Positions 24,173 through 33,949 of a stretch of DNA of 36,345 nucleotides are shown here, piece after piece. The position numbers and the translations under genes are program-made. The notes below the pieces were generated by a model, which did not search any database, was not told the DNA's origin, and saw nothing but the letters and a program-made list of their open reading frames with translations. Origin of the DNA: Thermovirgaceae bacterium. GTDB taxonomy: Bacteria; Synergistota; Synergistia; Synergistales; Thermovirgaceae. The DNA lies in NCBI GenBank assembly GCA_030656095.1, contig JAUSOU010000146.1, forward strand, positions 1 to 36,345, in the 5' to 3' direction. Numbering within the stretch: the first letter of the stretch is position 1; every line of letters begins with the position of its first letter.

Positions 24173-24196
24173 TAAAAAAGCGACCCCTTGCAGGGG
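24173..24196 (-). terminator. Terminator after SRP RNA
   Basis: CCCC-TGCAA-GGGG on the minus strand, then TCGC and TTTTTT. It partly overlaps the terminal stem of the SRP RNA. Confidence 0.65.
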
Positions 24197-24294
24197 ACCC
24201 AGCGCTCCTGCTGCACCAGAAAGGCCATATACCGCTGCTCCCTTCCGGGCCTGGCGGGGTTTTATGGACTTTCGTCGCACAGGACTGGATCCCC
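24193..24294 (-). ncRNA. ffs: Signal recognition particle 4.5S-type RNA
   Basis: RNA of the protein-targeting particle that binds Ffh. The diagnostic apical domain CAGGCCCGGAAGGGAGCAGC is present in the minus strand (CCGCCAGG-CCCGGAAGG-GAGCAGCGG), and GGGATCCAG at the 5' end pairs with CTGGGTCCC at the 3' end, giving a hairpin of about 102 bases without an Alu domain. It lies just downstream of a tRNA-Ser, a common neighbour. Confidence 0.93.
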
Positions 24295-24314
24295 AGCAAA
24301 AAATCGCCAAAGTT

Positions 24315-24402
24315 TGGCGGAGAAGGAGGGATTCGAACCCACGGGACGTTGCCGCCCAGACGCTCTCCAAGCGCCCGCCTTCGACCACTCGGCCACTTCT
24401 CC
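24315..24402 (-). tRNA. tRNA-Ser (GGA)
   Basis: A class II tRNA of 88 bases including encoded CCA. Acceptor stem GGAGAAG/CTTCTCC; anticodon stem GGCGC/GCGTC enclosing loop TTGGAGA, so anticodon GGA; long variable arm and T-arm GGGTTCGAATCC. It reads UCC/UCU. Confidence 0.96.
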
Positions 24403-24429
24403 ATTAGTCAACACTCAGTATATCAAATA

Positions 24430-24523
24430 TGGCGGAGAGAGTGGGATTTGAACCCACGAGACGGCTCATCACCGCCTAGACGATTTCGAGTCGCCCGCCT
24501 TCGACCAACTCGGCCATCTCTCC
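24430..24523 (-). tRNA. tRNA-Ser (CGA)
   Basis: A class II tRNA of 94 bases with encoded CCA. Acceptor stem GGAGAGA/TCTCTCC; anticodon loop CTCGAAA between GGCGA and TCGTC gives anticodon CGA, reading UCG. Long variable arm with GGCGGTGATGAGCCG. The first 48 bases overlap the 3' end of tadA on the same strand. Confidence 0.96.
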
Positions 24524-25093: not shown

Positions 25094-27598
25094 TCAGCGT
25101 TTTCTCATGCTTCTGACGAGAGAAACGAAGAGCACAAACAGCACCAGGGATGTTCCCAGCGCGAATATGCCCACCGTGGTCCTGTCGCCGCGGAACCGCT
25201 CCAGTATCTTTTCGTACCACTGCTGCGGCGTTTTGGCCGACGGTTCCGGCTCCGGAGTCTCCAGGTAGAATGGAATAACACGGCCGTCCGGCGAGACCAG
25301 GCAGACATCTCCGCGAAGGCGTGCTCTGACAAGGGCATCGTTGAACATCTCGCCGTCGGGGATCGTCCTGGCCCACCCCATTACCAGAGACAGGCTGGAA
25401 TCCTTCTGGGCGAGAAGTTGGAAAATGGCGGCACTCTCTCCGAACTCCGGGACCACAGGGACACTCTGCCCCGAGATGATCCTGGCGTTCTTTGCATCGT
25501 ACCCCACTGAGATCGGGATACCCTTGGCAACTATCTCCGAAACCGGCGCGACTATGACCGAATGCCCCTCGGGCTTGTCCCAGGAGAAGGACGCCAGACT
25601 CTTGACGGTAAGGGAGAGATCCCCCAGGAGACTCTGCTGCCAGTTGATCAGGATATGCCCGAGTGAAGTCAGGGCGCTTCCGCTCACGTTGGGACTCAGA
25701 TAAACCGTCATAGTCTTGTCGGATATCGCGTAAGGAAGAAACTCGAGCAGGGGTGCTACACGCTTCAGGCTGTGAGGAAGATGGAGATACGAGGACTTGT
25801 CAACGACAAGCCAGGCTGCCTCTGTGAAGTTGTGCCCGCAGTCGAAGGTGTCGATATCGAGATAAGCCCTCATGTTGAAGTTGAGGAAATCTCCGCCCTT
25901 GAGGTCTTTCGGAACAGGTACAACCAGGCGCCCCTCCTCCGAGGTCGTAATTCCCAGGGGCACCGATTTTCTGGGCACATCATCGAAATCAACGGTCAGT
26001 GCAGACTTCCTCGCATTCAGCACCGGTGAGTGCCTGTATCGCAGGACTATCTGGGGTGTCCCCTCCAACTCCCATTGCGGGGGAATCCTGAAAGACATGA
26101 ACTGCTCGTGGCTGTAGGTTCCCCGGAAGACTACATCACCGGTGAACACTTCAGAGAAAGGAAGTTCCGCTTCCATTTCGCTCCTGACCTGTATTTGCGG
26201 AAGCGGCGTATTCAGAGCCAGGGATAGTTTCCTGACATTCATCTGTTCCTTGAGTTCGGGGAGCATCATTGCCCGGACCCCGAAACGGACGCCCTGGGAT
26301 GTTTCCGCTGTGATCAGGAGTCTCCCCTTGCCGAAGCTGTTGAGGAACGATGACAGGTAACACAACCCCTTTATGGAATCCGGGGTTCCGAAGGATTCAA
26401 GCACCGTCTTGGGCAGCTTGTCCTTCCTCCCTATATAGATGATGTGAAAGGTCGAAGCGATCTCCGGGGTTACCGCGCTCGCGGGAACGACGCGCGGCCG
26501 GAAATCCTTGAACCTGGACTTTCGGGCCCAGGAAATGAGCATGTCGAACGCCGCTTCTGCCTCTGCCGGCTCAAAGTCGTCCGGTATCACTATGACACTG
26601 TTGTCCTTGTGATTAAGGTTGTTCTCGAAGAAGGGAGAGGTGAAATTCATCAGGCGCAGATCGCTTCTGGGCAGGTATCGCATATGCACGAAGCTCTCCC
26701 GGTGAATTCGCATCCAGTTGCCGGGGTTGTCGATATCCTGGCACTGTTCATCTATGGACCTCATGTAACTGTTCAGAGTTATCGTGTTTGTCCCCTCCCC
26801 GAAATATTCGGGGCTCACCGGGATCTTGATCTCGCCCTTCCAGACGTTCTTTGTGTCCATTACGATAGTGTAGATGGGGTCGTTATTTACGCTGACCACA
26901 ATGTTGGAGAGCTTGGGGTTTGTCGTTTGGGAGTGGCTCAGGACCAAGTGTATATAGCTTCCGTCGAGAACCTTCCAGGTCGGGGAAATATCAACAAAAA
27001 AGGACTGGGTCGAAAAAACGCTGCCGACCGAAATATCAGTTGTGGTGAGCGTCGAGTTGAATGTCTGGGAATCTTTTCCGTAAGTCCCCGGAGCCGACAC
27101 AAGCCCTTGCGTGCCTGTAGCGGACGCAGGGGCGGAAACCTGCGCTTCGCTTTTTTCGGTCAGCTTGGGTTCGGCGGCCTGAGCGGCTCTTTCCGGGGAC
27201 AGGTCGAGGACGATCCTGTCCGGTTTCGAAAGAGCAAAGTGCTTGATCGAAACCCCGGGGGTCCTGAGGGCTATGCTGACTATTGTGTCGCTCCCCGAGG
27301 AGGTGGCGCGATAGGACAAAGCGGCCCTGTTAGACGGGAAATTTCCGGATGTCTCACGTGGACTCCCCGTCCTGACAGTCACTTTAACCTCGCTGTTGGT
27401 CTTGACCACTGAATACTCGGAGGTTCGGTCCAGATCGATCACTATTCTGGCTCCGTCCAGCTGCAGTCCTGTCCGGATGGAATTTACGGAGCACTCCCCC
27501 AACCATGGCGTCGTCAGAACCCCCAGAGCGAGAACTCCCGCAAACGTTAAGCACAAAATACCCCGGGAAAAATCACTGCCTGACAGCTTCACTATCAT
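25094..27598 (-). CDS. BcsB-like polysaccharide synthase subunit with AMIN-like N-terminus
   Basis: Periplasmic, membrane-anchored partner of the glycosyltransferase, 834 residues. A signal peptide (1-35) is followed by an AMIN-like beta domain (about 40-135: GARIVIDLD, DRIVLDLSP), a low-complexity Ala/Glu/Pro linker (136-185) and the BcsB body with FGEGTNTITLNSYM and a Cys in SIDEQCQD. A single C-terminal helix (near 805-828, VGIFALGTSLVLFVLFVSLV) precedes basic RSMRKR. In cellulose synthase BcsB guides the chain across the periplasm. ATG 27598 overlaps the glycosyltransferase stop by one base (TGATG). The frame stays open upstream inside the preceding gene but that part is not coding. AMIN domains bind peptidoglycan or envelope partners, so fusion here is unusual. 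Confidence 0.85.
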   Translation of the reverse strand: MIVKLSGSDFSRGILCLTFAGVLALGVLTTPWLGECSVNSIRTGLQLDGARIVIDLDRTSEYSVVKTNSEVKVTVRTGSPRETSGNFPSNRAALSYRATSSGSDTIVSIALRTPGVSIKHFALSKPDRIVLDLSPERAAQAAEPKLTEKSEAQVSAPASATGTQGLVSAPGTYGKDSQTFNSTLTTTDISVGSVFSTQSFFVDISPTWKVLDGSYIHLVLSHSQTTNPKLSNIVVSVNNDPIYTIVMDTKNVWKGEIKIPVSPEYFGEGTNTITLNSYMRSIDEQCQDIDNPGNWMRIHRESFVHMRYLPRSDLRLMNFTSPFFENNLNHKDNSVIVIPDDFEPAEAEAAFDMLISWARKSRFKDFRPRVVPASAVTPEIASTFHIIYIGRKDKLPKTVLESFGTPDSIKGLCYLSSFLNSFGKGRLLITAETSQGVRFGVRAMMLPELKEQMNVRKLSLALNTPLPQIQVRSEMEAELPFSEVFTGDVVFRGTYSHEQFMSFRIPPQWELEGTPQIVLRYRHSPVLNARKSALTVDFDDVPRKSVPLGITTSEEGRLVVPVPKDLKGGDFLNFNMRAYLDIDTFDCGHNFTEAAWLVVDKSSYLHLPHSLKRVAPLLEFLPYAISDKTMTVYLSPNVSGSALTSLGHILINWQQSLLGDLSLTVKSLASFSWDKPEGHSVIVAPVSEIVAKGIPISVGYDAKNARIISGQSVPVVPEFGESAAIFQLLAQKDSSLSLVMGWARTIPDGEMFNDALVRARLRGDVCLVSPDGRVIPFYLETPEPEPSAKTPQQWYEKILERFRGDRTTVGIFALGTSLVLFVLFVSLVRSMRKR

Positions 27599-28863
27599 CA
27601 CCCCGCCCTCTCCGTCTTTACCCAAAAGTCTCCACCTTTTCTGAAAAGCGACAAAAAGCCCTTGATAAGAGCGTTGAACATCACGAGCAGCCAAAGCTGG
27701 CTGTAGGTAAAATACATTACAAGGGCGACAGCCAGGTTCGCGATCCTGTCCTCGCCGGGCTCCGCCGTCAGCGAAATTCCCATCTCGATCACAAAAAGCA
27801 CCGCGGCGAGAAACCACAGAATATTGAAAGGGCCTTCCAGAACGATGTTTCCAAAGCCCGTCAATCCCAGCAGGAATATCACGAGCGAAGTCGTAACGCT
27901 CGTCAAAAACAGAAAGTAGATCAGAACCATGTAAAGAACATCCCAGTATAGCCGGAATTTGCCCCGAAAAAGCAGGGACAGAAAATACTTCCTCAGAACG
28001 TAGATGTTGCCCCTGGCCCACCTGGTGCGCTGCCTGAACCAGACTGACCATCTTTCCGGTTCCTCTTCCCACGTAACAGAATAGGGAACCATCTTTATGA
28101 ACTTTCCCGCCAAGTATATCCTGATGGAAAGCTCCGTATCCTCGGTAAGGGCTTTGGGATCCCAGCCTCCGAGTGATTTTATCAGGTCGGTCCATACCAC
28201 AAAATTCGTCCCCGGTATGGTCGCAAGCCGGTAAAGGCTCCACCTGCCAGCCTGCGTTGTCCACTGAAAGAAGATCGTCTCCAGATTGATAAACCTCGTA
28301 AGAAGGTTTCTGTCCTGATTGCGGGTTCTGAATTTGCCGATAACCGCTCCAAGAGTATCTCTGCCCTCTACAAGATTTCTGACCAGGTAGAGCAGAGCGC
28401 TCTTTTCGGGGGTGTTGTCAGCATCGTATACAGCTATTATCTCACCCGTTGCGTGCTCCAGTCCAAAATTCAGAGCCTCCGCTTTTCCCCTGCCGGATCT
28501 TTCTTTGGGGACCGTCAAAACCTTGACCCGGCCCTTTGAAGCGGCGCAGACTTTCTGGGCGATCTGGCCGGTTCTGTCGCTCGAGCCGTCGTTGATGCAG
28601 ATGATCTCGACTTTTCCGGTCGGGTAGTCCATTGAAGCAAGAGAGAGCAGGGTCTTCTCTATAACGGCCTCCTCGTTGTGGGCAGGGACGAGAACGGTAA
28701 CTGAAGGCAGTTCGCCGATGGGAGAGCTGTCAATCCGGCGTTTCTCTTCGGCCGCCACGATTGAATACCTGTAGCCGGCATAGGAGAGGATCACGTGATA
28801 AAGGAGAACGCTCCAGATAACTATAAGGCAGACAATGAAGATATAATCGAGCGGACCGATCAT
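27598..28863 (-). CDS. Processive family 2 glycosyltransferase (cellulose/PNAG synthase-like)
   Basis: Membrane GT2 that should polymerise a beta-linked glycan and export it, 421 residues. N-terminal helix 5-28; catalytic domain with DGSSD (92-96), DAD of YDADN (147-149), TED (240-242) and QRTRW (278-282), the processive-synthase set. Helices at about 306-335, 345-365 and 375-405 follow. There is no PilZ domain, unlike BcsA. The size resembles PgaC/IcaA and short cellulose-synthase-like enzymes. ATGA overlap with the preceding DUF2334 gene and one-base overlap with the BcsB gene. The sugar cannot be inferred with certainty; the DUF2334 neighbours favour an N-acetylated sugar. Confidence 0.9.
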   Translation of the reverse strand: MIGPLDYIFIVCLIVIWSVLLYHVILSYAGYRYSIVAAEEKRRIDSSPIGELPSVTVLVPAHNEEAVIEKTLLSLASMDYPTGKVEIICINDGSSDRTGQIAQKVCAASKGRVKVLTVPKERSGRGKAEALNFGLEHATGEIIAVYDADNTPEKSALLYLVRNLVEGRDTLGAVIGKFRTRNQDRNLLTRFINLETIFFQWTTQAGRWSLYRLATIPGTNFVVWTDLIKSLGGWDPKALTEDTELSIRIYLAGKFIKMVPYSVTWEEEPERWSVWFRQRTRWARGNIYVLRKYFLSLLFRGKFRLYWDVLYMVLIYFLFLTSVTTSLVIFLLGLTGFGNIVLEGPFNILWFLAAVLFVIEMGISLTAEPGEDRIANLAVALVMYFTYSQLWLLVMFNALIKGFLSLFRKGGDFWVKTERAG

Positions 28864-30383
28864 TCCCGGAACATCTCCCTTTTCTTGCGCCTTGTCTGGC
28901 GGAAATAAATCGCCCCAAGGACGATCGCCCCCGACACTCCCACGAAAAGGGGGATAAACCTGGTAAGCGGGACCTTGGTGAAAGCCAGTTGCCAGATGGG
29001 AGGCACCTCTACAACCTCGACAAGTGGATCTCCACCATAATCCTTCGCGCCCGCAAACTCAAATCCCCTATCCCTTATCTGCGGGATAAGCTCCCGGAGG
29101 TAGAGATCACCGGCAACATAAGGGTGATAGAAGAAACAGGCGAACGGATCCCTGACGATGCTGGTCAGGGTATCGAGCCGTTCGAGAATTGTTATTATCG
29201 ACATTTTCTCGGCGTCTGTGGCTATGTAGCCCAGCTGTTCGGGAAGAACAGTGAGTCCCTCCCGGGATTTGTATATTATGTAGGGAAAATCCTGGGAAAT
29301 GGTGTAACTTTCATCGGATATCATGAGAGATCCGGCGATGGTTCCGAAGTACTGCGTCAACTCCCTCTGAAGGCTGAGAGGCATATTGTAGTGAGGCGCC
29401 TCGAAGAGCTTGGGGTGCAGGCCCGCCTCCTTGAAAAGCCACAATCCGTACCGCATTCTTTCATGGAAGTACGCCTTCTCCTCGGGAATGAAATCGTCCG
29501 CATCGACATCCCAGAACTCGGACCCCTCCCCCGAAACCTGGTGATACTGGTGTGAGGTTCCATGCATGATGACCGTTCCGCCCATCCTTTCAGCCTTGAT
29601 CAAAACATCCAGCAGGGGCGGGTTGTCGATCAGTAGAAGTGCGCGCGGTGCGCCTTTGGCGTTTATGAAGACCGGAAATACCGCCATGGAAAAGGGCACA
29701 CCCTCACTGTAAAGGAAGTCTATAGAATCCTTGAGCCTTTTCAACCTCTCTCCGGAGTATGACGGGTTGATGTCCTCAAGCCTTACCATCGCCAGTCTTT
29801 TCGGAGAATGCGGCGCCTCCAGAATATCGTGAAGGACATCGGCCAGGATCCAGGCCGGAACCTCGAACATCGGGGCGCCATGGATCATCCAGCGGTTGCC
29901 TTCTCTCTCTATGAAGGGAACCGCTTCAGACGACTGGGACATCGCAACAAACGTCTTTCCAAATGTCTTTGACATCTTTTTTATGGAGAAGTCGTCCAGC
30001 CAGAAGCTTTTTCCTCTGTAGGTCACAAGATCGCATTCGTATTGTGATGGAAGAGCGCCAAGCCAGCGGTGTTCCCCGGCAAAGACTGTTATTCCGCTTC
30101 TCTTTTCCAGAGCGTTCCTGATATCCTCTCCGGGAACCGGCGAATCGTAGGACAGAAGAATAAAAACGGCGCCGGCTGAAATAATATCGCCGGGGTCGGC
30201 CTGGTCCAGACTTGCCGTTCTGGCATCATACTCCCTGAAATGCCCCAGCAGGTTGACAAGGGTGTTGGCGAAGGTCTCCGTCATGCCGTCATGAAGGACC
30301 AGCGCCGACTGAGCGGCGAAGGCTGTCCCGCATATAATGACGTTTGCAAAAAGAGCCGTTGCCAGGGCAAAGATCCTTTTCAA
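28860..30383 (-). CDS. DUF2334 membrane-anchored deacetylase-like protein (metal motifs intact)
   Basis: A 507-residue exported protein: signal peptide 1-23, C-terminal membrane helix about 472-494 and basic cytoplasmic tail. The centre resembles DUF2334, a divergent polysaccharide-deacetylase-type (NodB/CE4-like) fold. RLEDIN (201-206) supplies an acidic residue, HGTSHQYH (274-281) a His triad, and FEAPHYNMP a further His. Deacetylation of the nascent polymer outside the membrane is inferred. TTG start overlaps the preceding gene's stop (TTGA), with GGAGGAGG upstream. Paralogous to the next gene upstream, which has lost these residues. Confidence 0.82.
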   Translation of the reverse strand: MKRIFALATALFANVIICGTAFAAQSALVLHDGMTETFANTLVNLLGHFREYDARTASLDQADPGDIISAGAVFILLSYDSPVPGEDIRNALEKRSGITVFAGEHRWLGALPSQYECDLVTYRGKSFWLDDFSIKKMSKTFGKTFVAMSQSSEAVPFIEREGNRWMIHGAPMFEVPAWILADVLHDILEAPHSPKRLAMVRLEDINPSYSGERLKRLKDSIDFLYSEGVPFSMAVFPVFINAKGAPRALLLIDNPPLLDVLIKAERMGGTVIMHGTSHQYHQVSGEGSEFWDVDADDFIPEEKAYFHERMRYGLWLFKEAGLHPKLFEAPHYNMPLSLQRELTQYFGTIAGSLMISDESYTISQDFPYIIYKSREGLTVLPEQLGYIATDAEKMSIITILERLDTLTSIVRDPFACFFYHPYVAGDLYLRELIPQIRDRGFEFAGAKDYGGDPLVEVVEVPPIWQLAFTKVPLTRFIPLFVGVSGAIVLGAIYFRQTRRKKREMFRE

Positions 30384-31954
30384 CTGAAGAGATCCCTCCT
30401 CCGTCCCGCGGAGCGCTTAAGGTATATCATCAAAAGAAGCAGTCCCACGGCCGCCCCGAGATACAGAATCGCGTAGGCTGACCTTATCCCGATCCGCCTG
30501 GTCCTCTCGAAACCGCTGAGATCATCGATCTGCGCAATTCCATTGGCAAGAACCACACCCGAAGGAAGGTCGGGAGGAAATTCAGTGGAATACCCCTGCT
30601 TTTTCATCTCAAGGATAATAATTTCAAGCATCTCCACTCCAAGGGACGGGTCATAGGCAAACGACCCCAGGGCACCCCTGACTACAGTCATGTCAAGGCT
30701 TCGACCGAGAATGAGGGAAACTGTCTCCTGGGGGTTGTAGCGGGAAACATAACCCAGGTTCTCGGGCAAAAAAATCATGTTCCTGATTTCCGCCATAAAC
30801 GGCGGAACATAGGAAGCTTCCGACGTCATGTCACTCGTCTGCAACCTGCCCACATAAAGATCAAACCTGTCCCCGACAATATCCAGGAGACCGGGGGGCA
30901 GCTTGTAGGCGGGTGCCATGAAGCCGGAAGGGTGTATCCCGAGTCTGGAGGAGACGGTCAGTCCGTCGGCCATTCGCGTCCTGAGGACCTCCTTCCCGCC
31001 TGGAAGCGGATGATCGTTCTCAAAATCCCAGAACTCGGCCGCGTTCTCGTAGGGAATCCTGTGGTAGTTTCCCGCAAAGCCCCGCATGATGATCGGGACC
31101 CCCTGTTCCGAGAGGCGCCGAAGGGCTTCAGCGAGGGGCCTGTTCCTGGCTATCGTGACAAGCTTGCCCGTTCCCCCCTCCCAGTTGGCCGGGGAATAGG
31201 AGACCGCAAAAGGAACAGCCTGCTTCGACAGCCATTCCGTGACTTCATTCAGCCTGCTCGCGTCAAAGAAGGGGTCTATCCCGTCAAGGCGTACAAAAAG
31301 GGTTCTCTTCTTCCATCCGGTCCCCAGGGCGTCGTGGAGAAGGTCCGCAAAAACCAGCTCTCCCCCTTCCCAGAATGGAACCCCTGCAAAGAGCCAGAAC
31401 GATCTCTCCGGAATGTGGATGGCCAGGGGAACGGACCTTTGAAGGTCAGTGGCTTCAGCCAGGACTTTGGCGCCGCCCCCGGCCTCGAAAATAGCCGTCT
31501 GCTGCTGTTTTCCTGCAAAAATAGTCCTTTCTCCATATACGACGTGGTCAAAATCAAAGGGAACTCCCCCCCCTACGCGAATTCCGGGTGGTAGTTCTTT
31601 TGGTATTCCCGGTCCTGCCCACACGACGGGCCCTGAGTTTTCAGGAATGGGAATTTGGGAAACGCCCTCCAGGGTGGAAAGAATTACAACCCCGTCAAAA
31701 TTTTCCCCATCCTTCGGGACAAAATCTCCGGATCCCCTCACGACAACCTCTTTTGCAAAATGCGAAAGCAGCACGCGCATCATAAGTACCGGATCCGCCG
31801 TGCTCGATGGCAAAAGGTCCCCGGAATCGTGAACGAGGAGAACTCGGCCGACGCGGGACGATTTCGCCTGCGCGGGCTGAACCAGCGGAAGGGTCATCAG
31901 AATCGTAAGGAAAATCATTAAAGATCCCCAACAGGACCACCTAACCGTGGTCAT
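30380..31954 (-). CDS. DUF2334-like protein lacking metal-type residues
   Basis: A 524-residue paralogue with the same plan: signal peptide 1-30 (ending AQA), a DUF2334-like body, a C-terminal membrane helix and basic tail. The positions equal to the metal motifs have changed: RLEDIN becomes RLDGID (222-227), HGTSHQYH becomes RGFAGNYH (291-298), and APHY becomes APAY. It is therefore probably inactive as a hydrolase and may act as a scaffold, glycan-binding subunit or regulator of its neighbour (inference). Start ATG 31954, supported by GGAGGGATT; it overlaps the GGDEF gene by 14 bases. Confidence 0.8.
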   Translation of the reverse strand: MTTVRWSCWGSLMIFLTILMTLPLVQPAQAKSSRVGRVLLVHDSGDLLPSSTADPVLMMRVLLSHFAKEVVVRGSGDFVPKDGENFDGVVILSTLEGVSQIPIPENSGPVVWAGPGIPKELPPGIRVGGGVPFDFDHVVYGERTIFAGKQQQTAIFEAGGGAKVLAEATDLQRSVPLAIHIPERSFWLFAGVPFWEGGELVFADLLHDALGTGWKKRTLFVRLDGIDPFFDASRLNEVTEWLSKQAVPFAVSYSPANWEGGTGKLVTIARNRPLAEALRRLSEQGVPIIMRGFAGNYHRIPYENAAEFWDFENDHPLPGGKEVLRTRMADGLTVSSRLGIHPSGFMAPAYKLPPGLLDIVGDRFDLYVGRLQTSDMTSEASYVPPFMAEIRNMIFLPENLGYVSRYNPQETVSLILGRSLDMTVVRGALGSFAYDPSLGVEMLEIIILEMKKQGYSTEFPPDLPSGVVLANGIAQIDDLSGFERTRRIGIRSAYAILYLGAAVGLLLLMIYLKRSAGRRRDLFS

Positions 31955-32807
31955 ACTCGTAATCCCTCCTTGCAATGTTAAGCAAGGGGATATACTCTTC
32001 TCCATCCGCGGGGAAAGTGGCCGTGCCGATCCTGATTGTAAGGCGAATTCTTCTGAACTCCTCTCCCGCAGGGGAAATGTCCAGGTAAGGGAGGCGCTCC
32101 TTTACACGATCCGTCAGGATTTTTGTGCCGTCCTTTGGGGTGTTGGGCAGAACAAAAGAGAACTCGTCCCTTCCTATCCTGGACAGAAAGTCCTCGAGTC
32201 TCTTCATCCCCTTTAGCGTCTCAGCCACCTTCTGGATAACAAGTTTCTGGACGCGAAGACCGTGGACATCCTCGAGTTCCTCCAGAAAGGCGATCTTCAC
32301 AAGCATCACCGAGAACTCGCCGCCGTATCTTTTGCAGCGGGAGATCTCCTCAACAACCCTGAATGCGAAACGCTTCGCGTTGTCCAGGCCGGTCATCTCA
32401 TCGACGGCGACAAGATCCTCGATCTCCGTGCTGAGAGTGTTAAGCTTTTCGATGACACCATCGACCGACTCGTTGAGCGAGCCGCTGATAAAGGCCGCAG
32501 CCGGAACCGCCAGAAGCCAGAAAAGCTGGCTCGCCCCGATCAGAACGGGCTGCTGCAGCCAGAGTACGAGGCCGATCTTGATGGTGCCGTATCCGAAAAG
32601 AACTAAAAGGGCAACGATGAGGCTGCCCCGTAATCCCAGGGAAAGTCCTACGAACAGACACCCGGCCGTGACGATCGACATGACGTAATCCTCGAAGGGG
32701 ATCGAGAAGTTCATGAACTGCCAGGTAAATAAAACCATGAAGCCGCAAAAAGCCGCGGTGAGCTTGAGAAAAATGCTCCTCTTAAGGGCTCTTTCGGACA
32801 CCTGCAT
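31941..32807 (-). CDS. Membrane protein with degenerate GGDEF domain and intact I-site motif
   Basis: A 288-residue protein: about four membrane helices within residues 11-110, a short coiled linker, then a GGDEF-fold domain (135-288, opening with DEMTGLDNAKRF). The signature reads GRDEF (212-216) and the metal-binding D-x-D of the first strand is missing (VKIAFLEELED instead), so cyclase activity is unlikely. The inhibitory-site motif R-x-x-D (RLED, 203-206) is exactly five residues before the signature, as in c-di-GMP-binding GGDEF domains. A c-di-GMP receptor role, as for PelD, is inferred. ATG 32807 with GAGGGG upstream. Confidence 0.83.
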   Translation of the reverse strand: MQVSERALKRSIFLKLTAAFCGFMVLFTWQFMNFSIPFEDYVMSIVTAGCLFVGLSLGLRGSLIVALLVLFGYGTIKIGLVLWLQQPVLIGASQLFWLLAVPAAAFISGSLNESVDGVIEKLNTLSTEIEDLVAVDEMTGLDNAKRFAFRVVEEISRCKRYGGEFSVMLVKIAFLEELEDVHGLRVQKLVIQKVAETLKGMKRLEDFLSRIGRDEFSFVLPNTPKDGTKILTDRVKERLPYLDISPAGEEFRRIRLTIRIGTATFPADGEEYIPLLNIARRDYEYDHG

Positions 32808-32827
32808 CACACCCCTCTTGTTCGTCT

Positions 32828-33949
32828 TTAATTCCCGCTCCCCAAAACCGCTTCCATCGCAAGGAGCGCGATGAGGTTATCAAAAGCCCAGGCCGAATAC
32901 TTCCCTTCGCTCTCCTCATAGCACAGCAACCCCGAAAGGGCCGGTTCATCATTCCTGAAATCAAGCAGTCTGCCCAGCATCAGGAGGGCTTCTGTCTCCC
33001 TTCCGCTGTGGTGAAGAAACAACGCAGCCAGAGAAATAACGGAGATATTCTCATTACCATACCTGTCGAGCAGCTTTTCTGAGACAGCGGCCGAAGCAAA
33101 CGGATCAAACGTCCCGGGATGCACGAAACCCGCCTCCGCCAGATATAGAAGAGACATGGTCTTGCCGATAATCTCGTCGTCCTGGTCGGTCTCTTCGTAG
33201 GCGTTGGCGTCTGGGCGGAAGAGCCACCAGGGGGAATCGCGGCCCATGACTCCGGCCATGAGGACCCCGGACATTCTCTGCAGAACGGGAACCCACTCCG
33301 GGTCGATCTCTGAAAGCTGTCTCATGGCCATTATATCGGCGTATGCGAGAGTACTGGTGTCGTAAACCTGATCAACTCTGGCTTTACTTATGATGCCCGG
33401 TTTTTTCCAGGAGCATCCGTCCAACAGCAGACCGTCAACTACGTTGTATTTCAAAAGAGCCTCGCCTATGGACCTGGCCAGTTCGAGGTAATCGGGGTTT
33501 TCCCAACGCCTGTCGGCGAGGATCAGCGCTCTTGCCACTCGAAGATCGTCGACGGATGCGTTCCACAGCTCCGCGGTTTGGTGGTTTTCTTCGATCTTCC
33601 AGGGGAGAAGGCCCAGAGGGCCGATGAAAAAGGACTTCAGAAGCTTCACCTGTCGGTCGAAAGAGACCTTGTCCCCGCGTGAAAGGTGAAGCATCATCTC
33701 AAGGCCAACCGTCTCGGAAAGGAATGTCCTCTCCTCGGTATTGGTAAAAAGAAGTCCGGAAGTGCTCCTGAGACAGCCGTCAAGGCCTTTTAGTATCTGC
33801 CTCCTTGCTTCCTCCAGCTCACTTCTGATGGCCGCCTGAGGGAGGGGGGCGCCGCTGGCTTCGGGGCTGGCCTTGGTTATGTAATACACCCCCGAAAATA
33901 TGAGAATCAAAAACAAAAGAATTACCGGGATTTTTCTTTTTAAAAACAT
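32828..33949 (-). CDS. GH8-like glycoside hydrolase, membrane-anchored
   Basis: A 373-residue protein with a hydrophobic anchor (7-24) and short linker, then an alpha/alpha-barrel sequence of GH8/BcsZ type. LSETVGLEMM (77-86) aligns with SEGQSYGM, placing Glu79 at the general acid; ASVDDLRVARAL (131-142) aligns with ASDADLWIAYAL, placing an Asp at the base position. W and DDL motifs recur. Endo-cleavage of the operon's glycan during export is likely by analogy with BcsZ. Start ATG 33949 lacks an adjacent ribosome-binding site; GGAGG lies upstream across a 26-base hairpin. First gene of the operon. Confidence 0.78.
   Translation of the reverse strand: MFLKRKIPVILLFLILIFSGVYYITKASPEASGAPLPQAAIRSELEEARRQILKGLDGCLRSTSGLLFTNTEERTFLSETVGLEMMLHLSRGDKVSFDRQVKLLKSFFIGPLGLLPWKIEENHQTAELWNASVDDLRVARALILADRRWENPDYLELARSIGEALLKYNVVDGLLLDGCSWKKPGIISKARVDQVYDTSTLAYADIMAMRQLSEIDPEWVPVLQRMSGVLMAGVMGRDSPWWLFRPDANAYEETDQDDEIIGKTMSLLYLAEAGFVHPGTFDPFASAAVSEKLLDRYGNENISVISLAALFLHHSGRETEALLMLGRLLDFRNDEPALSGLLCYEESEGKYSAWAFDNLIALLAMEAVLGSGN

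Follow-up and report, generated by a model that had tools for sequence, protein, structure and literature searches.

The closest described systems to the locus reported here are the Pss system of Listeria (pssA-E plus pssZ) and the YdaJKLMN system of Bacillus subtilis, both of which couple exopolysaccharide (EPS) formation to c-di-GMP through a membrane protein. PssE (Lmo0531) of Listeria monocytogenes binds c-di-GMP with a Kd of 0.79 uM, two per molecule, and EPS requires PssE (PMC4125290). YdaK of B. subtilis binds c-di-GMP with a Kd of ~1 uM, and the substitution R202A or D205A abolishes EPS (PMC5422440); PssE and YdaK are both positive effectors (PMC4125290, PMC5422440). YdaK has four TM helices, c-di-GMP alters its whole GGDEF domain in HDX, binding of the ligand lets it contact the cyclase DgcK, and the protein clusters with YdaM and YdaN (PMC7064775). 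In the Bacillus operon YdaJ is a glycosidase, YdaK the receptor and YdaLMN the EPS enzymes (PMC13274460). A further receptor is PelD, of Pseudomonas aeruginosa and B. cereus; the B. cereus protein binds c-di-GMP via R363, D366 and R395, of which R395 is required (PMC7112168). The BcsA-PilZ cellulose synthase and the clostridial CcsA likewise comprise a GT2 with a membrane partner under c-di-GMP control, and their receptor is the PilZ domain of the synthase itself (PMC7710045). No c-di-GMP target in the phylum Synergistota was found in the literature searched.

We analysed a window of 36,345 nucleotides, the whole stretch of contig JAUSOU010000146.1 of a Thermovirgaceae bacterium considered here; all window coordinates below are on the reverse strand unless stated otherwise. 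One gene (31941..32810) encodes 289 aa from a GTG start, and we place a probability of roughly 85% on its product serving a Pss/YdaJKLMN-type exopolysaccharide synthase as c-di-GMP receptor of the PssE/YdaK type; its Pfam domain, its orthologues and its match to PssE are part of the evidence. The initial annotation had used an alternative start, an ATG at 32807 that gives 288 aa, and residue numbers counted here from the GTG are higher by one. Hydropathy and Pfam indicate a layout of four predicted N-terminal membrane helices followed directly by one GGDEF domain. The membrane region covers approximately residues 10-113 (32472..32783), with hydropathy segments at 12-31, 41-62, 46-86 and 88-109, and the degenerate GGDEF domain, delimited by Pfam and alignment, covers residues 131-289 (31944..32420), the Pfam GGDEF match lying at residues 135-280 with 75.4 bits (cut-off 23.8). 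The chain ends in ...EYDHG and the C-terminal end typical of cyclases is absent; PssE and the Bacilli relatives also stop here, with ...EYDV as their chain end. An AlphaFold prediction of the receptor from a two-sequence alignment had a pLDDT of 48 and a pTM of 0.24.

Neither of the features of an active cyclase, GG(D/E)EF and the metal aspartate, is present in the receptor. Alignment places GRDEF (residues 213-217; 32160..32174) as the remnant of the motif, and exactly five residues (FLSRI) separate it from the preceding RLED (residues 204-207; 32190..32201), whose R204 and D207 form the primary I-site. As reference positions we take PleD D327 to be the metal site, N335 and D344 to be guanine contacts and R390 to be an I-site residue, with WspR R198 presumably a residue of the secondary I-site. 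At the positions of PleD D327, N335 and D344 the receptor has K/E/K (K172, E180 and K189), the first-strand DxD having become KIA (K172, A174), and the 27 ordinary cyclase domains used for comparison, the majority encoded by genomes of this phylum, have D in 27/27, N in 27/27 and D in 26/27. K172 (32295..32297) thus replaces the metal-binding aspartate, and the same lysine is found in all five orthologues from the phylum as well as in PssE. The third I-site residue is R235 (32106..32108), which corresponds to R390 of PleD and to R395 of B. cereus PelD, and R161 (32328..32330) aligns to WspR R198 of the secondary I-site. Judged by these residues, the GGDEF domain is catalytically dead and keeps a complete I-site.

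Since GGDEF domains carry RxxD as a rule, with R in 26/27 and D in 27/27 of the ordinary cyclases, its presence in a single protein is weak evidence for a receptor. Among 188 genomes of the phylum, five, its own included, encode an orthologue of the window protein (E <= 1e-20), and they belong to several families; the other four orthologues share 44-48% identity with the window protein over their full length. R161, R204, D207 and R235 are invariant in all five, and the metal aspartate is K in every one (D 0/5). The guanine-contact positions have N in 0/5 and D in 1/5, the motif glycines are present in 0-1 of the five, and the equivalent of E371 is retained throughout (5/5). At the GGDEF motif itself the five read GRDEF, DEAEF, SEGEY, SEGEY and DTGEF, four different forms, with the least decay in the window protein. 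The RxxD evidence becomes strong because the site is kept in 5/5 orthologues while GGDEF has decayed to four forms. The reading of the initial annotation from the letters, namely a GRDEF signature with the first-strand DxD lost and RLED five residues upstream, is thereby upheld, as is its view that the I-site was conserved and the active site lost; the alignment that it had proposed, with RxxD expected to be more conserved than GGDEF, gave just that result.

Using the GT2 of the operon as the query, the same synthase type was found in genomes outside the phylum, and in three of these (G239, G367 and G263) the GT2 has as its neighbour a degenerate, membrane-anchored GGDEF protein in which RxxD is present and the GGDEF motif is not. 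With the G239 protein as tblastn query, matches were obtained to Listeria records filed as plasmids in PLSDB, one of which encodes a membrane protein, DUF2334, GT2, BcsB and a 'diguanylate cyclase', the published pss order. The last of these proteins carries DKDDA at position 208, preceded by RTSD, and is the published PssE/Lmo0531, as identified by the DKDDA motif at 208 (PMC4125290). By BLASTP the window receptor and Listeria PssE are 26% identical (E 1.7e-17) across a 239-residue match that takes in part of the membrane region, while the window GT2 is 46% identical to PssC over 415 residues and the BcsB-like protein matches PssD at E 7e-14. A tree of GGDEF domains united 13 of 15 PssE-like rows in one clade apart from the 27 cyclases (support 95/94), in which the five from the phylum join the Bacilli/Listeria group (support 94/98); branches are long and the branching order inside the clade is not firm. 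The G367 and L. plantarum rows sit on very long branches and are not part of the clade. Among all 15 rows RxxD is present in 13 and the metal aspartate in none, and conservation of R204 with D207, of R235 and of R161 is 13/15, 13/15 and 14/15, respectively. Scanning named genomes with a profile of the five orthologues brought up only bacterium 42_11, whose contig and G061 are one and the same DNA, and a GGDEF protein of the ordinary kind from Azoarcus. Because the profile E-value does not split the PssE-like family from cyclases, some of which outscore PssE, we relied on operon context, GT2 identity and the tree. Common descent of the receptor and PssE is supported by the BLASTP match and by the clade, subject to the long branches. 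Two PssE-like membrane proteins beside a related GT2 have lost RxxD, one in an Enterococcus faecalis record (L075, 8914-9774) and one on a Lactiplantibacillus plantarum plasmid (L077, 5979-6836), and c-di-GMP signalling may have been lost in those lineages.

The gene order in the window is GH126 glycosidase, GGDEF relic, DUF2334, DUF2334, GT2 and BcsB. We take YdaL, YdaM and YdaN to be the DUF2334, GT2 and BcsB-like proteins, so that the order equals that of ydaJKLMN, with one YdaL gene in B. subtilis versus two DUF2334 genes here. The glycosidase, of YdaJ/PssZ type (32831..33949, with a probable M start at 33949 and a frame open to 34066), bears the Pfam name GH8. Among solved structures its best matches are the GH126 proteins CPF_2247 (3REN; E 3.8e-16) and Listeria PssZ (6R2M; E 1.7e-10); true GH8 enzymes score much worse, at E ~1e-3. 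A GH126 survey includes 'bacterium 42_11' and a 'Synergistetes bacterium' outside Firmicutes (PMC7479077). DUF2334 protein 1, a 541 aa frame (30383..32005), is deacetylase-like but has lost the metal motifs, with RLDGIDP and IMRGFAG where RLEDINP and MHGTSH are expected; both motifs are intact in DUF2334 protein 2, of YdaL/PssB type (28863..30383, 507 aa). The tandem genes possibly encode a pseudoenzyme/enzyme pair. Listeria PssB, too, is without the deacetylase metal motifs, and differs in this from DUF2334 protein 2. The GT2 polysaccharide synthase, of YdaM/PssC type (27601..28863), is followed by a BcsB-like protein with an AMIN domain, of YdaN/PssD type (25097..27568); both assignments are based on Pfam and the Listeria matches. 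Four of the five orthologue loci show the order glycosidase, receptor, DUF2334 (one or two) and GT2, followed by BcsB on contigs long enough to include it, and the fifth contig (G061) stops inside DUF2334. No c-di-GMP riboswitch was found in the window, and the stretch directly preceding the operon shows neither a terminator nor a sigma-70-like promoter.

The window protein therefore resembles PssE in its membrane helices and degenerate GGDEF domain, the five-residue spacing from RxxD to the dead motif, K for the metal aspartate and a chain end in ...EYD, and its operon resembles pss in DUF2334, a PilZ-less GT2 and BcsB. The differences are a sequence identity to PssE of just 22-26%, the position of pssE as the last gene of the Listeria operon with pssZ outside the pssA-E region, and PssA, which Listeria has and which was not found in the window operon. 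YdaK, compared via published descriptions rather than sequence, shares the four TM helices and the dead GGDEF, and its I-site residues R202 and D205 have nearly the same numbers as R204 and D207. The clostridial Ccs system was considered and rejected as a match, as CcsA has a PilZ domain and CcsH/I are acetyltransferases.

The genome of the host (G000) appears equipped for c-di-GMP turnover. It contains seven GGDEF matches, six besides the receptor, and 13 HD-GYP matches, and it is therefore very likely that c-di-GMP is made and degraded; given 13 HD-GYP against seven GGDEF and no EAL domain in the genome, breakdown seems to rest on HD-GYP alone. Pfam finds no PilZ domain on the window GT2, as the initial annotation had stated, nor in the whole genome, which is 89% complete. 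That annotation had also suggested that the protein may be the only c-di-GMP input to the polymer machine. It is probably the input of the PilZ-less GT2 and, as far as domains can be recognised, is the only c-di-GMP receptor within the operon; the genome has one MshEN domain, another c-di-GMP-binding fold, outside it. Most likely, the predicted receptor has lost c-di-GMP synthesis, kept sensing, and switches on a surface polysaccharide machine. In the mechanism that we propose, carried over from PssE and YdaK by homology, other GGDEF proteins of the genome would provide c-di-GMP and the receptor itself would make none. The ligand, probably as a stacked dimer, would bind R204, D207 and R235 of one GGDEF domain together with R161 of another, and binding would change the shape of the domain. 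The membrane helices would relay the signal, and the GT2/BcsB synthase would then begin polymer synthesis and translocation.

Several other explanations were weighed against a PssE/YdaK-type receptor. An active diguanylate cyclase with an unusual motif one residue from the canonical form would accord with the D, E and F retained in GRDEF, and an AGDEF enzyme of Vibrio is reportedly active (PMC3974145). This is nevertheless very improbable, as K172 sits at the metal aspartate and E180 and K189 at guanine contacts where 26-27 of 27 cyclases have D/N/D, the orthologues carry DEAEF, SEGEY and DTGEF, and the C-terminal end of the GGDEF domain is missing. An unlikely but somewhat better candidate is a structural synthase subunit free of ligand control, with RxxD retained because folding needs it or simply through inheritance. 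RxxD is indeed found by default in GGDEF domains (26-27 of 27), and the E. faecalis and Lactiplantibacillus PssE-like proteins that lost it presumably still serve their operons. Against this, RxxD, R161 and R235 have stayed fixed while nearby GGDEF residues drifted among orthologues less than 50% identical to the window protein, and I-site mutants of YdaK are non-functional (PMC5422440).

The initial annotation had described the protein as PelD-like, which holds for the mechanism, a dead GGDEF with an I-site, and fails for family membership, the homologues being PssE and, judged by its operon and described properties, YdaK. PelD shares with the receptor the logic of membrane helices, a degenerate GGDEF in a polysaccharide operon, and RxxD plus a third, downstream arginine (PMC7112168), and yet it has a GAF domain, works with PelE/F/G, and no sequence relation to the receptor was detected beyond the GGDEF fold. 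No GAF domain lies between helices and GGDEF in the window protein, and PF16963 (PelD_GGDEF) did not match it, reaching E 0.24 in one of ten family members. No PelD structure was among the profile matches listed for the receptor, which extended to FimX and DosP. There are no pelE/F/G neighbours, the operon instead holding GT2 and BcsB, and it is scarcely credible that the protein is a genuine orthologue of PelD from a Pel-type system. It is improbable as well that the receptor acts on the synthase as an inhibitor instead of an activator; the direction of control is not readable from sequence, but the relatives PssE and YdaK are positive effectors (PMC4125290, PMC5422440).

Under the preferred reading, a PssE/YdaK-type receptor, the gating of a PilZ-less synthase by a dead GGDEF domain with a live I-site reaches beyond Bacillus and Listeria into a phylum far removed from theirs. 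The receptor principle is known from those two genera, and what is new is its presence in a quite different phylum. The orthologue alignment yields a clean residue-level prediction, and the relatives without an I-site offer a natural control for a ligand-free role of the domain. More tentatively, and with considerable doubt, a synthase system and receptor described so far in single-membrane bacteria may be used here by an outer-membrane phylum, the polymer being exported without a BcsC-type channel, perhaps via an SLH-anchored porin such as one next to bcsB in a relative. No BcsC C-terminal domain was detected in the host genome. In genome G071 (L041, 2753-4210, reverse strand) the neighbour of bcsB encodes a protein that has an SLH domain and weakly matches a porin; it is a candidate outer-membrane route for the polymer.

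Elsewhere in the window, a Moco riboswitch is located at 275-392 on the forward strand, and a small SRP RNA with two tRNAs (24193-24523) lies just downstream of the polysaccharide operon. On an Acinetobacter variabilis plasmid (L076; 7992-9245 and 11934-13079) a GT2 with 41% identity to that of the window, and with no GGDEF relic, is encoded near UDP-GlcNAc 2-epimerase (wecB), a context hinting that GT2 proteins of this type may build a ManNAc polymer, the product reported for Pss in Listeria.
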